A stretch of DNA of 49,565 bases from IMG/VR virus record IMGVR_UViG_3300037963_005421, positions 1 to 49,565 of that record. The stretch is one strand, 5' to 3'. The position numbers and the translations under genes are program-made. Source of the DNA: a virus. The notes under the pieces were generated by a model, which ran no database searches, was not told the origin of the DNA, and saw nothing but the letters and a program-made list of their open reading frames with translations. Positions 3,756-10,181 of the stretch are shown here, in pieces. Numbering within the stretch: the stretch's first letter is position 1; every line of letters begins with the position of its first letter.

Positions 3756-3911
3756 CTATTTGCTCTGCTTGGCTTTGATGGCTCGGCCTTGCAGGGCGGC
3801 CTTTGCCTTTGCTCTCTTGCGTCCTGACTCGCTGCTGTAGCGGTACTTCTTGCCGGTCTTGCCATAGCGGTAGAAGCCACCCTTACGGTCGGTCCCTCGC
3901 TGAACAGGCAT
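3756..3911 (-). CDS. Small basic conserved phage protein (51 residues)
   Basis: The product begins MPVQRGTDRKGGFYRYGKT and continues with a Lys/Arg-rich tail ending AIKAKQSK. Small proteins beginning P-V-Q-R-G..G.FYR.G..GKKY are recurrent beside virion genes in environmental phages, which is recalled family knowledge, not a search result. The start overlaps the stop of the upstream gene (TGATG), making it the last gene of a five-gene minus-strand operon. Strong positive charge would suit nucleic-acid contact inside the capsid; this is inference. Confidence 0.7.
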   Translation of the reverse strand: MPVQRGTDRKGGFYRYGKTGKKYRYSSESGRKRAKAKAALQGRAIKAKQSK

Positions 3912-4510
3912 CAGCCCTGCCCCTTCTTTTGTTGGAGCATCTGGGACACCCGAAGCATGGCTTCCAGTTGGGACTTGGTATTGGGGTGCATGCCTCGAGT
4001 CTCTGTCTGAAGGACTTGTTGCAGCAGCGCCGTGGCATCGCCGTGCCGACCGGCCTGCATGGCAACCATTGCGCTTCGCATTGGTGTGCCCTCAGCGGTA
4101 TCCCGCGGCAAGAACGAGGAGGTATAGGCATCCATGAGCTGGTTCTTGACGGCCCTTTTCCCTGACTCGTTGATGTCCATGACCTTTGAGGGTTCGACTC
4201 CAACAATGGGACCGGCCACCTCTTCGGCTGGCTTTGGATCTGTGGCAAGCCGCTCCGCTGTCTTGGTTGCTGAGTCAGCCACTTCCCTGGCCGCATCCAT
4301 GGCGCGGGCTTGGAAGGTCATGTCTTCGGGTTTCGGATCGACATCGACCCCAGACTCTTCGGCAAGTTCCAAGTACTTCTCTGCCGCCATCTCCGGTGTG
4401 CGGAACTGGTCAAGGTACTCGCTGTCAGCGCGCAGCAGAAACTCTCGCAGGCTGTCTTCAGCTCCGGCAACAGCCTGCTTGGCAAGTCGAGTCATTTCTT
4501 TAGTAGGCAT
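3911..4510 (-). CDS. Putative virion-associated protein with the shared N-terminal module (copy 1)
   Basis: 199 residues. Residues ~8-45 (RLAKQAVAGAEDSLREFLLR, then ADSEYLDQFRTPEMAAEKY) belong to a module found in three neighbouring genes. The remainder is hydrophilic and helical, with no motif I recognise, ending in a Gln/Lys-rich tail. It overlaps both neighbours by single-base TAATG/TGATG junctions, so the genes are translationally linked. Function unknown; context suggests a capsid-associated role. Confidence 0.65.
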   Translation of the reverse strand: MPTKEMTRLAKQAVAGAEDSLREFLLRADSEYLDQFRTPEMAAEKYLELAEESGVDVDPKPEDMTFQARAMDAAREVADSATKTAERLATDPKPAEEVAGPIVGVEPSKVMDINESGKRAVKNQLMDAYTSSFLPRDTAEGTPMRSAMVAMQAGRHGDATALLQQVLQTETRGMHPNTKSQLEAMLRVSQMLQQKKGQG

Positions 4511-4848
4511 TATTCCTCTCCCATTTCACCCAGCTGTTCCATCATCGACGACAGGAGCCCCTTTAGGGCATCGGAGTCGAAGTCCGCACCGACCTTGAGC
4601 ATCTTGATGGCTTCCTTCATCTTGCCGACAAAGGCGTCCACGTCGAGGTCACCCTCTTCGCTGGATTCGACAGCGCCTTCCATTTCTTCCTGTTCAAGGA
4701 GCGCCTTCATGGCGTCTTCAGGGCTGGCAAAGTTCTCAAGGTAGTCGGATGGGGCCTCCAGAACGAAGTCGTTCAGGGCCTCATCGTCGCCGCCCATGCC
4801 TGCCTTGGCAAGCCGGATAATCGTAAACGAGGGCATCTTGCCATGCAT
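4510..4848 (-). CDS. Putative virion-associated protein with the shared N-terminal module (copy 2)
   Basis: 112 residues, acidic. Start ATG 4848 has AGGAG seven bases upstream. After MPSFTIIRLAK the module reads GDDEALNDFVLEAPSDYLEN followed by FASPEDAM. The C-terminal part is a charged helix ending in a Met-rich stretch (LLSSMMEQLGEMGEE). The acidic composition is opposite to that of the basic members of this cluster. Confidence 0.65.
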   Translation of the reverse strand: MHGKMPSFTIIRLAKAGMGGDDEALNDFVLEAPSDYLENFASPEDAMKALLEQEEMEGAVESSEEGDLDVDAFVGKMKEAIKMLKVGADFDSDALKGLLSSMMEQLGEMGEE

Positions 4849-4849
4849 C

Positions 4850-5092
4850 TTAGTTCTCCTTTGAGACTGCTTGTGCGGCCATCATCACATCTTTATATTG
4901 GTCCAAAAGACTGGTTGGCGCTGCCAAGACAAAGTCATCCATGGCTTCTTTGTCTCCGCCAATGGCTTTGGTTGCCGCAGCAATAAGGGCATCCATTGCC
5001 CGTTGGCCGCCGACCATGGACTTAAGCGCAGACTTCTTTGACTTGTTGGGTGCTGGTTGCTCTGGAGGTGGAGCAGGTCTACCGGGTTTCAT
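4850..5092 (-). CDS. Putative virion-associated protein with the shared module at its C-terminus (copy 3)
   Basis: 80 residues from the ATG at 5092, preceded by GGAGTCAAA; the upstream in-frame extension (MRFFFGVK) has no better site. It opens with a Pro/Lys-rich segment (MKPGRPAPPPEQPAPNKSKK) and then carries the module GGDKEAMDDFVLAAPTSLLD. Here the module is C-terminal rather than N-terminal, which supports its being an independent unit. Confidence 0.65.
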   Translation of the reverse strand: MKPGRPAPPPEQPAPNKSKKSALKSMVGGQRAMDALIAAATKAIGGDKEAMDDFVLAAPTSLLDQYKDVMMAAQAVSKEN

Positions 5093-5136
5093 TTTGACTC
5101 CAAAAAAAAAGCGCACTTCTTCACCAGAGAGTGCCT
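5091..5136 (-). terminator. Possible attenuator: short hairpin with T-run before copy 3
   Basis: On the minus strand GCACT...AGTGC closes a ten-odd-base loop and is followed by GC and eight T residues, immediately upstream of the ribosome site of the next gene. The stem is short and mismatched, so partial termination is the most that can be suggested. Confidence 0.35.
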
Positions 5137-5166
5137 GTCAACCTTGAATAAAGCAAGGTGGCTGAC

Positions 5167-5679
5167 CTACCATTTGACTTTGTCAGCCCAGTAGGCGGCA
5201 GACATTTTTCCCTTCGCAATATTTTTTCGGTGGCGAGCCTTAAAGCTTGCCCGCTTTTTTTTCATGCGTTCGCTTTCGCCTTTCTTGGGTTTTCCAGCGG
5301 TGCTGGCCCCTTGTTCACCAAACCGAATGGTCTTGATTTTGCTGCCTTCCTTGGCAACAACGATGTGAGATTTCTTGGGGTGGTTTGGCGTTCTCTTGGG
5401 CTTGTTGACGCCAGAAACACCGGCTCTTTTGACAGCGGACGCAGTTTTCTTGGCGGTTGAGCTGCTCGGTGAGTTGGTTTTTCGAGCAGATGAGTTCGAT
5501 CCGCTGCGCTTCTTGCGGTTTCGCTCGTTTGCCTTGGCGACGTAGCCTTTGGCAGCGTCTTGGTGGGAACTGTAGTTGTCCAAGAAGTCGCTGGAGGCCC
5601 TGAGAACAAAGTCATCGAGGGCTTCTTTGCCCCCGGCTGCGGCTTTTCGTGCCAACTCCAGCATCTTTGTCGTAGCCAT
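5167..5679 (-). CDS. Conserved basic phage protein with the shared module (copy 4) and a C-terminal KARH...AAYWADKVKW domain
   Basis: 170 residues; the ATG at 5679 is chosen because GTAGGAG precedes it and the module then begins at residue 3. Residues ~4-40 include GGKEALDDFVLRASSDFLDN. A Ser/Lys/Thr-rich linker follows. The last ~65 residues (HIVVAKEGSKIKTIRFGEQG, then KKKRASFKARHRKNIAKGK and SAAYWADKVKW) form a domain that I recall as recurrent next to virion genes of marine phages. This is the first gene of the five-gene cluster and its leader is the hairpin-rich region to the right. Confidence 0.75.
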   Translation of the reverse strand: MATTKMLELARKAAAGGKEALDDFVLRASSDFLDNYSSHQDAAKGYVAKANERNRKKRSGSNSSARKTNSPSSSTAKKTASAVKRAGVSGVNKPKRTPNHPKKSHIVVAKEGSKIKTIRFGEQGASTAGKPKKGESERMKKKRASFKARHRKNIAKGKMSAAYWADKVKW

Positions 5680-6037
5680 AGACGCACTCCTACACCACAT
5701 GAAGGCAGGTCAACCAGAGAGGGGGGATACCGCCCCCCTATCGGCCCCTAAACCTCGGGGAGAGGGATGCCGTCGGAATCAAGACAAAAGGGGGAACGGC
5801 ATCGCACACAAGGACATGTCTTTAGAAGCGTTTACCTGTCCTCCAGTGGCCTCCGAACTGTTCGGAGCTGGAAATCGGACAGGCAACTGGCCTTCTGAAT
5901 GGCTGGACGGGCCTATCTATCGTCCAGCCCACCCCAAACGGACGACGCATCATCGGCCAACGGGGGTGTTTTCTTGCTGAGAGCATCACCAGCAGGCCTG
6001 GTGAACCGCCAGAACGGTTGTTCTGTAGCGAGAATAC
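5680..6037. other. Non-coding, hairpin-dense intergenic region
   Basis: No convincing reading frame. Successive inverted repeats: 5720-5739 (seven G:C-rich pairs), 5745-5760, 5766-5803 (GATGCCGT/ACGGCATC), 5811-5842 (AGGACA/TGTCCT), 5851-5867 (CTCCGAA/TTCGGAG) and 5901-5929 (nine perfect pairs, GGCTGGACG/CGTCCAGCC). At 5929-5975 CACCCC pairs with GGGGTG and is followed by TTTTCTT on the plus strand. It is either the long leader of the minus-strand gene at 5679 or a separate structured RNA of about 250 bases. Confidence 0.55.
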
Positions 6038-7341: not shown

Positions 7342-7403
7342 TCGTACCGTTCTAACCCGCATATCTCAAGAAGGAGGCCTGGGGACGGTAAAGGTCTCAC
7401 ACA

Positions 7404-7459
7404 GAAGAGCGTTGCTCTACGGAGTCAAGCTTTGCTTGAACTCCTTGAGCACGCTCTTC
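7404..7459. other. Long imperfect hairpin (about 25-base arms)
   Basis: The left arm begins GAAGAGCGTTGCTC and runs to GAGTCAAGC; the right arm begins CTTGAACTCC and ends GAGCACGCTCTTC. The arms pair over most of their length with small bulges. It lies just upstream of the minus-strand gene starting at 7341 and could be a leader structure or a processing/termination site. There is no T-run on either side. Confidence 0.6.
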
Positions 7460-7629
7460 TAATGGAGCCGGTTTCTCGGACCTTGTCAACCTTAAGAGTT
7501 GTCATTTCTCGCTTCTCCCCGTTGCACCTGCCTCATTGGAAAACGTCAGAAATCGTTTGAGGGGTCTAATGATATATACAGCGGGGCGACCCTGGGGGGG
7601 GAGCTCCCCCCTCGCGCCTAACGCGCGCC

Positions 7630-7791
7630 CACAGAACGGAACCCCGCGCACAGCTGTGCACGGAAAGGAACCGCATGCACTCGAGCACGGAGAGGAACCC
7701 CGCACGTCCGGCCACAGAGTGGAACCCTCACATGCGCGGGCACAGAGTGGAACCGCAGGCACACACTGCTTTCGTCGCAGACAAGTGGAAC
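7630..7791 (+). repeat. Six degenerate direct repeats, consensus CAC(A/G)GARNGGAACC
   Basis: Copies begin at 7630, 7659, 7686, 7713 and 7741, spaced 29, 27, 27 and 28 bases, with a weaker sixth copy around 7778 (AAGTGGAAC). The GGAAC core is invariant. Some intervals contain short palindromes, for example GCACAGCTGTGC between copies 1 and 2. The spacing is too short and the repeat too variable for CRISPR. Protein-binding sites or repeated RNA elements at the 5' end of the large RNA are both possible. Confidence 0.6.
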
Positions 7792-8016
7792 ACACGGCGC
7801 GCCTACACGCGGGGATACTGACCCCTGGATGCTGCTCTCCCCTCTCCTCCAATCCTCCCCAGACTCACCCCCTGATCCATGGCGGGGACCTGCTGAGACC
7901 ACACCCGAGACAAGCTCCAATCCGGCTGTCATGGGGTGATCAGGTCTCCAAAGTGGTGGCCAGGGAGGCAATTCAGAACATCAGCGGAAGTTTTTTTGAA
8001 AAAAGTTACCCACTTG

Positions 8017-8093
8017 CAATGTGCACAATGATGACATTTGGCACATTGAGTGACCCTATGGGGTTGCACTTTGTCATGCAATCGGGCACATTG
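8017..8093. promoter_or_regulatory. Operator-like boxes CAATGTGC / GCACATTG (three copies)
   Basis: CAATGTGC at 8017-8024 is the inverted partner of GCACATTG at 8041-8048 and again at 8086-8093; the first pair is a 32-base interrupted palindrome, the last two are direct repeats 45 bases apart. They lie where a promoter for the plus-strand block or the structured RNA is expected. A phage repressor such as one of the three helix-turn-helix proteins is a plausible ligand. No clean -35/-10 pair was found. Confidence 0.45.
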
Positions 8094-8662
8094 AGGGTGT
8101 GGTTGGAAACAATCACAGACCCGAACCGGGAGCCGCTACACTCCCCTGACCTGTAGCCAGATACAGCACCGACATATCCAGCGTTGCACCGATCTTTTTG
8201 AGGTCACTACTGACTCCCTGCCATGACCCGCTGTAATGCGGTGAGCACGCTACCTCTCGGGGTAGCAGAGGGCCCGTCCATGTTGAAAGACAGTCGATGA
8301 CTGTACCCATGACGGTGTTGCGATTCTTCCACGCTACCCATGAGAGCCGGGGATTGGATCGAGTGAGGGATACCCTCGGGACAAGCCAGACCTAAGCGGT
8401 CGGATCTTGTAAGCGTCTAGTGGCGCCCCGATAGCGGCCCCTAACTCTCCATCAGACCGGCAGACTGGGACTAACGGCAACGGCACGAGCCCCCTGTGTG
8501 GGGTCCGGGAGGAGTAGCAGCACTTGATAGGTACACGATAGGCGAGGCGGTGTACTGCAGACAAGCCATTACCCCGTGAGGGGGCTTCGGATACGGCTCC
8601 GGGGCGTTTAGCAAGTCAATTGTTTAGGTGCCAAGGGTGCCCGTGCTCTACAGACAATAGGG

Positions 8663-8755
8663 AGCGGGTACCTGTTAAGTCTCAAAGCTCAGCGGGGCTG
8701 TGTGCTGGATCTGGTCTAACCGGGTTCGAAGGGGGTTCGATTCCCCCTCCCGCTA
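8663..8755 (+). tRNA. tRNA-like element with anticodon CUA and an extra ~20 bases after the 5' acceptor strand
   Basis: From 8690 to the 3' end the geometry is canonical: D-stem CAGC/GCTG with a ten-base loop, one linking base, anticodon stem ATCTG/CGGGT with seven-base loop GTCTAAC (T33, anticodon CTA, A37), five-base variable loop, T-arm GGGGG-TTCGATT-CCCCC, 3' acceptor TCCCGCT and discriminator A. The matching 5' acceptor AGCGGGT is at 8663-8669, leaving 20 unexpected bases (8670-8689) before the D-stem, and the last acceptor pair mismatches. CCA is not encoded. It may be a degenerate or embedded tRNA within the large RNA rather than a functional amber-reading tRNA. Confidence 0.4.
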
Positions 8756-8809
8756 TCACTGCACCGTACTTGCCCAGCTGCTGGGAGAAGTGCGTCTGCA
8801 AATTGACCA

Positions 8810-8845
8810 GGCATCACTGACCTCCGGGTCGGTGGTGCCTTTTTT
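8810..8845 (+). terminator. Intrinsic terminator ending the structured RNA
   Basis: GGCATCACTGACC pairs with GGTCGGTGGTGCC (thirteen pairs, some G-T) around a short loop and is followed by six T residues. It separates the non-coding locus from the gene starting at 8860. Confidence 0.85.
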
Positions 8846-8859
8846 CATGGAGGCCAGAG

Positions 8860-9102
8860 ATGGATAAGAAACTATTAAAGTGGGTCAACAGTGACTATAG
8901 TCACTGGGCGGCACTGCGGGATGGGTCATTCGATCTCATCCCGAAGTCCCTACGGGGACGGGCGAAGAACTGGCATCACAATCGTGATCACAATCGTGAT
9001 GCCAGAATTGAGGCCTTCCGCCCTAGCCCCCGCAGTGCCGGGGAGATCGAGCGGGAGGAGCGGGAGGACCGCTCCTATTGCTGGGCGGCATTCGGATGGT
9101 AA
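8860..9102 (+). CDS. Small unknown protein
   Basis: 80 residues; GGAGG precedes the ATG by six bases. The sequence is charged and contains a short repeat (HNRDHNRD) that comes from a tandem CACAATCGTGAT duplication in the DNA, followed by an acidic/basic stretch (EIEREEREDR). No family recognised. Its stop shares a base with the next start (TAATG). Confidence 0.55.
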   Translation: MDKKLLKWVNSDYSHWAALRDGSFDLIPKSLRGRAKNWHHNRDHNRDARIEAFRPSPRSAGEIEREEREDRSYCWAAFGW

Positions 9103-9404: not shown

Positions 9405-9512
9405 GTCTGCTGGGAGGAGTGCGCCTCCTCCCAGCGTTCAGCTCACATCGGTGGAAACGGTTCGGCTCGATCGAACCGTGTCCCCTGCTGTGAGCAGGAA
9501 AGGAGTCAAGAC
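9405..9512 (+). promoter_or_regulatory. Leader with three hairpins and the GGAGTCAAGACATG cassette
   Basis: 9409-9435 is a perfect 11-pair stem (GCTGGGAGGAG/CTCCTCCCAGC) right after a stop codon, 9457-9479 is ACGGTTCG/CGAACCGT, and 9484-9498 is CCTGCT/AGCAGG touching the ribosome site. None has a T-run, so RNA stability, processing or translational control is more likely than simple termination. Confidence 0.55.
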
Positions 9513-10181
9513 ATGAAGGTAAAAGACGCGAGGCTGATCACCGGACACAAGAGCGGCTTAGGAAAGCCGTCGAAAATGCCGGGGTTCTCTACCTCCCTGC
9601 CAGCATCGCTGTGCAAGGTGGGATCTCGGCTTGCGGAGAAGGCTGGCAGCACTTGTAGCAAGTGCTACGCCCTCAAGGGCAACTACCTGTACAAGAGCGT
9701 GCAGCAGGGTCTGAGGGCCCGCTATGACGCCCTGACCCACCCCTTGTGGGTGGATGCAATGACGATGATGATCAGCCGTCGGTGCACTATCGGGCACCGT
9801 GAGAAGGGCTACTTCAGGTGGCATGACTCTGGAGATCTCCAGAGTCTCCAACACTTCATGAACATCGTGGAGGTCTGCCGTAGAACCCCGGGTGTCCGTC
9901 ACTGGCTCCCGACTCGCGAGGTCGGGATCTTGAAAGCCCACGACAAGGCTGTCCGGGATGGCTCTGCCCAGCCGATCCCCGGTAACCTCACCGTTCGGGT
10001 GTCGTCGTTCTTCACCGGGCAGAAGCCCATGAAGCGGCTCCCAGATGGTGTCCTCACCAGCACCGTGTCGTGGCGGGATGCCCCTGCTGTGTGCCCTGCA
10101 AGCAAGCAGGACAACAAGTGCGGCCCGTGCCGCAACTGTTGGGACAAGGCTGTCCCGAACGTGGACTACCCTCAGCACTGA
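9513..10181 (+). CDS. GP88-family phage protein (cysteine-rich, radical-SAM-like spacing)
   Basis: 222 residues. It matches what I recall of the phage gene product 88 family: start MKVKDARLITGHKSGLGKPS, TCSKCYALKG with C48 and C51, FRWHDSGDLQ at 101-110, and a C-terminal cysteine cluster (CPASKQDNKCGPCRNCWD). The C-x-x-C-Y-A and W-H-D-S-G-D motifs recall photoproduct-lyase/Gp37-like proteins, so iron-sulfur or zinc binding is plausible. No biochemical role is established that I know of. The ribosome site AGGAG is part of the recurrent leader. Confidence 0.75.
   Translation: MKVKDARLITGHKSGLGKPSKMPGFSTSLPASLCKVGSRLAEKAGSTCSKCYALKGNYLYKSVQQGLRARYDALTHPLWVDAMTMMISRRCTIGHREKGYFRWHDSGDLQSLQHFMNIVEVCRRTPGVRHWLPTREVGILKAHDKAVRDGSAQPIPGNLTVRVSSFFTGQKPMKRLPDGVLTSTVSWRDAPAVCPASKQDNKCGPCRNCWDKAVPNVDYPQH

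Follow-up and report, generated by a model that had tools for sequence, protein, structure and literature searches.

Large noncoding RNAs of phages are abundant where they have been measured, and some of them form RNA cages. To our knowledge, none has a settled function. The GOLLD and ROOL classes are large, phage-borne and associated with tRNAs (PMC12286853). In the Vibrio phage ICP1, the most abundant transcript is a noncoding RNA of about 800 nt that derives from a gap devoid of open reading frames (PMC7567579). In the Pelagibacter phage HTVC027P, we found that the noncoding gap before the gene for Gp88 holds the Rfam family Flavobacterium-1 (90.2 bits). A GC-rich, structured noncoding stretch in this phage (L089:4216-4597) carries Flavobacterium-1 at its 3' end and lies just before the Gp88 gene. 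A stretch upstream of Flavobacterium-1 recurs with 74% identity over 123 nt in contigs L066 and L071, shortly before Gp88, and contig L093 contains a hairpin pair similar to the HTVC027P stretch.

The locus studied here resides in a viral record from IMG/VR that was analyzed over its full length of 49,565 bases (the window). The record carries a terminase gene on the minus strand (phrog_2), genes for a RecT-like annealing protein, a YqaJ-type nuclease, two DNA methyltransferases and an MT-A70 methylase, as well as QueC-like, queuine tRNA-ribosyltransferase-like and Gp88-family genes. Its nearest terminase relatives in IMG/VR (L002 and L003) share 55-57% identity with it. The candidate noncoding RNA (8000..8846, plus strand) is located between divergent blocks of leftward genes, with starts at about 7 kb, and rightward genes beginning at 8860. 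The first rightward gene (8860..9102, plus strand) encodes an unknown protein of 80 aa, and the Gp88-family gene (PF17338, phrog_1392; 9513..10181, plus strand) served as the anchor for comparing other phages. The same noncoding gap contains an interrupted hairpin of about 24 bp at 7403-7460 (outer stem AGAAGAGCG..CGCTCTTCT) that lacks a T-run. Another strong hairpin, CTGGGAGGAG..CTCCTCCCAG, is intergenic at 9406-9435 and has 18 of 20 bases in common with positions 8778-8797 of the candidate RNA. On the minus strand, four adjacent proteins encoded at 3911-5700 share the N-terminal motif ~eAL.DFvL.A.s.yLdny, which may be a tag for sorting or packaging common to all four. In the 177-aa protein from this stretch (5167-5700, minus strand), the lysine-rich C-terminal part is 84% identical to a protein encoded at L046:2030-2287, on an AT-rich phage contig otherwise unrelated to the window.

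An earlier sequence-only reading had claimed that some 750-850 bases hold no credible gene, and this was borne out at the level of sequence in all six frames. When scored with a codon-usage model trained on the confident genes, most real genes reach log-likelihoods of 0.02 to 0.24. Between 7921 and 8880, the values are negative in six of six frames, the best being -0.04 at the 5' edge and all others -0.11 or lower. Six-frame read-through translations of the region did not match any Pfam family. With codon usage and Pfam both negative, a decayed protein gene was dropped as an explanation.

At least seven clean stem-loops had been described for the region. Our search for perfect, non-overlapping hairpins of at least 6 bp retrieved 10 between 8000 and 8845, compared with 4.9 for dinucleotide-shuffled sequence, in which 10 are reached in 5 of 300 cases. 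However, 18 of 116 equal-length windows of the same phage equal or exceed this count. The element as a whole folds with z-scores of -3.3 on the plus and -2.5 on the minus strand, and three of 16 control windows nearly match or beat this stability (z -3.28, -4.44 and -6.82). With phage windows as rich in hairpins and some controls as stable, the number of hairpins taken by itself says little. Three GNRA loops sit on stems of 4 bp or more, where 0.63 would be expected: one at 8106 on an 8-bp stem, and those at 8285 and 8576 on stems of 4 bp each. The earlier reading had noted one GNRA tetraloop.

The bias between the strands is stronger evidence for an RNA than the number of hairpins. Stability confined to the plus strand stems mostly from G-U pairs and is expected of an RNA transcribed from that strand. 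Such a pattern was observed for 8310-8526 (z -2.07 on the plus, +0.15 on the minus strand), 8630-8680 (-3.10 and -0.48) and 8600-8800 (-2.29 and -0.27), segments that were picked from the plus-strand fold, a choice that favours this strand. Among 200-nt control windows, 9 of 65 reach a z-score of -2.2, so that no segment taken singly is more than moderately unusual. The stretch 8010-8120 has a z-score of -2.64 on the plus strand, 8120-8310 folds no better than shuffled sequence, and the 200-nt window 8401-8600 is less stable than its own shuffles (z +3.3).

Several structural parts can be distinguished on the plus strand. A 5' hairpin cluster (8017..8117) consists of hairpins at 8017-8048, 8050-8067 and 8098-8117, the last with a GAAA tetraloop, and GCACATTGAG is present in it twice (8041-8050 and 8086-8095). 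A long-range folded domain (8310..8526) is predicted with pair probabilities of 0.83-0.99; its helices pair 8314-8321 with 8517-8524, 8323-8330 with 8508-8515, 8346-8350 with 8457-8461 and 8361-8364 with 8444-8447, and it encloses inner hairpins. The hairpin search also yielded CCCC-GUGA-GGGG with its GNRA loop (8572..8583), and the predicted fold contains a 15-bp bulged hairpin at 8635..8673, within the segment that is stable on the plus strand.

The region ends with an intrinsic terminator (8809..8846, plus strand; fold z -6.02) that has a stem of 14 bp, one more than the 13 pairs previously counted, a UCCG loop and a T-run. The stem (8809-8840) ends 19 nt before the ATG at 8860, the T-run extends to about 8846, and the GGAGG ribosome site of the first rightward gene follows directly 3' of the terminator. 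With the terminator in this position, any upstream transcript reaching the gene at 8860 must read through it, and the region can chiefly be read in two ways, as a noncoding RNA of its own or as a leader that is terminated. A search for sigma-70-like promoters between 7000 and 9400 was negative.

A tRNA-like element is located at 8691..8754 on the plus strand. It was retrieved with a descriptor specifying a 7-bp acceptor, a short linker, a D-arm with GG in its loop, a second short linker and a 5-bp T-arm with TTCRANN. The element has a seven-pair acceptor (8691-8697/8748-8754) and a five-pair T-arm (8731-8747) with the canonical loop TTCGATT, lacks an anticodon arm and is followed by a discriminator-like A at 8755. 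Its D-like arm (8705-8723) reads CTGG-ATCTGGTCTAA-CCGG with GG in the loop, and seven bases separate it from the T-arm; the linker before it measures 7 nt, against 2-3. An alternative fold, in which a 10-bp hairpin (8707-8727) replaces the D-arm, is energetically favoured (-33.2 kcal/mol, calculated for a slightly longer stretch, versus -22.3 kcal/mol for the D-arm fold), and as modeled this form would be nearer to the layout of tmRNA or selenocysteine tRNA. The descriptor, composed after the first candidates had been seen and hence no independent test, finds five sites across the 1.01 Mb that the window and the phage contigs make up; random sequence (2.02 Mb, both strands) yields no hit. We consider it unlikely that the element arose by chance. 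The tRNA-like element recognized by the earlier reading is real as a pattern, but ARAGORN detects no tRNA in the whole 49.6-kb record, and the best covariance match, tRNA-Sec, stays below threshold (19.8 bits with a cut-off of 47, E 0.75). A tmRNA was dropped; the tmRNA_permuted model scores 13.2 bits, also below a cut-off of 47. A phage attachment site copied from the 3' end of a tRNA was rejected as well, since the 5' strand of the acceptor is present too.

The other four descriptor sites belong to two phage lineages (L046/L048 and L013/L044) and lie on the same strand as the Gp88 gene, about 1-2.4 kb upstream of it. A pattern scan of IMG/VR that was independent of Gp88 provided further convincing elements, including those in L102, L104, L107, L110 and L098/L111, and we therefore do not claim a special link of armless elements to Gp88. 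The recurring elements come from unrelated phage contigs and combine acceptor, D-arm and T-arm, but where the anticodon arm would be they have only 7-13 bases. They are found at L046:5587-5642, L104:11590-11645, L107:57-111 and L098:1412-1472, on the minus strand at L102:2303-2359 and L110:1858-1912, and as a nearly identical pair at L013:7310-7372 and L044:7915-7977. Between L104 and L046 the acceptor shows a compensatory change (GCGCTAC/GTAGCAC versus GCGCCAC/GTGGCAC), and the Rfam tRNA model accepts the L046 element with 43.7 bits despite the absent anticodon arm. A separate tRNA-like pattern scan returned only ordinary tRNAs with long variable arms (Leu in L112, Ser in L113). In the open-licence literature, we found no paper describing armless tRNA-like elements of phages. 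Their recurrence suggests that the acceptor/T-arm half of tRNA serves phages for a purpose other than decoding.

The proposal that the RNA belongs to GOLLD or ROOL did not hold. The covariance models for the conserved 3' region of GOLLD (RF02032) and for ROOL (RF03087) were silent at E<=10; one search route for ROOL was also silent on phage K and thus had no working positive control, but cmscan recovers known families. All other Rfam families were likewise negative, both in a scan of the window and at a relaxed threshold on the region. BLAST against phages and plasmids gave nothing above chance level. Among IMG/VR and GTDB genomes, searched with read-through translations of the RNA as pattern sources, there was no confirmed relative, in a procedure whose confirmation step requires frame-preserving similarity, so that distant relatives could escape. 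The flanking small genes as queries did not lead to a relative either. There was no match to the RNA in the terminase relatives L002 and L003, whose contigs cover mainly the structural half, and no nucleotide similarity to it in 80 Gp88-bearing contigs. In its size, phage origin and tRNA-like content the candidate does fit the class descriptions (PMC12286853), but with both models silent and no tRNA gene in the record, we regard a divergent member of GOLLD or ROOL as very improbable. Positions 8000-8846 are instead a credible candidate for a large noncoding phage RNA that is an orphan outside these classes.

Among the explanations for the locus as a whole, a stand-alone, trans-acting structured RNA appears best to us, tentatively and at slightly less than even confidence. 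A competitor is a cis-acting 5' leader of the rightward operon, in which the terminator would serve as an attenuator overcome by antitermination, be it through a phage protein or through the RNA itself (put-type). The terminator lies so close to the gene behind it that a function as leader seems nearly as natural as action in trans: the end of the stem, the T-run, the ribosome site and the ATG succeed one another within 20 nt, there is no room for a separate promoter 3' of the terminator, and the region divides divergent gene blocks. However, an attenuator of 800 nt would be long, the RNA may itself contain a promoter, and no antiterminator helix stands out, as the complementarity of 7997-8010 with 8834-8847 is only one among eight weak inverted pairs found over 4.5 kb. 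We consider the leader possible rather than probable.

It is unlikely, to a somewhat greater degree, that the region represents control DNA, i.e., operators or a replication origin that is untranscribed or only incidentally transcribed, with GC-driven hairpins, a terminator that only shields the rightward genes from transcription coming from upstream, and a decayed tRNA. The hairpin-rich and even more stable windows elsewhere in the phage would agree with this, as would the operator-like repeats TGTGCACA/GCACATTG at 8017-8095 and the iteron-like repeats with a spacing of about 28 bp just upstream. The latter comprise four to five copies of CACRGARNGGAACC at 7630-7754 and are a possible origin or operator array. 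Two domains with a folding signal on the plus strand only argue against control DNA, as do the intact seven-pair acceptor and five-pair T-stem of the tRNA-like element.

For the trans-acting RNA, the noncoding sequence, the orientation of the terminator and the plus-strand-only folding make a single plus-strand transcript ending at the terminator, as envisaged by the sequence-only reading, the best interpretation, transcription itself being inferred. The tRNA-like element also counts in its favour, and HTVC027P offers a precedent for the position and ICP1 one for the kind of RNA. Against it speak the lack of homologues, and with them of covariation, in the collections searched, a stability and hairpin number that are unexceptional for this phage, the stretch 8120-8310 with its missing folding signal and the negative promoter search. 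Such an RNA of about 0.8 kb would be made from the plus strand between the leftward and rightward blocks and stop at 8809-8846. Its folded parts would be the 5' hairpin cluster, the domain 8310-8526 and the 3' third with bulged hairpin, tRNA-like element and terminator, while the stretches in between may serve as flexible linkers. It would most likely act in trans as an abundant, structured molecule, like other large noncoding RNAs of phages, and the tRNA-like piece could be a recognition element for tRNA-handling proteins as putative partners. Partial read-through of the terminator would supply the rightward genes. A still bolder view would see here a large, ornate phage RNA of a new class that has no relation to GOLLD and ROOL, whose 3' part contains a tRNA-like domain devoid of an anticodon arm, and which possibly belongs to a wider habit of Gp88-bearing phages, that of placing structured RNAs immediately before the early operon; we give this a low probability. 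If the locus does encode another unrelated large phage RNA, such RNAs originated several times.

Compared with known systems, the candidate shares with GOLLD the phage origin and the size, many GOLLD members exceeding 800 nt. GOLLD sometimes carries a tRNA in a linker, whereas the tRNA-like piece of the window is situated in the 3' part; GOLLD is also often, if not universally, found near tRNA islands, whereas this tRNA-like element is all that the record offers. ROOL is likewise large and phage-borne, but there is no tRNA island near the region and, as for GOLLD, the covariance model is silent. The tRNA-like domain of tmRNA and tRNA-Sec resemble the element in having acceptor and T-arm without a normal anticodon arm and in the possible long middle hairpin, while the window element is contiguous, lacks a tag-peptide domain and scores under the model cut-offs. 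The HTVC027P gap with Flavobacterium-1 (RF02976) has no sequence similarity to the window, in which that model finds no match; it is a positional parallel only, a structured noncoding region that lies between divergent genes and precedes a Gp88-family gene. For the ICP1 RNA expression has been shown, whereas the RNA of the window is a candidate deduced from its sequence; by description, the two are alike in their length of about 800 nt, in their origin from a gap without open reading frames and in belonging to phage genomes without tRNA genes.
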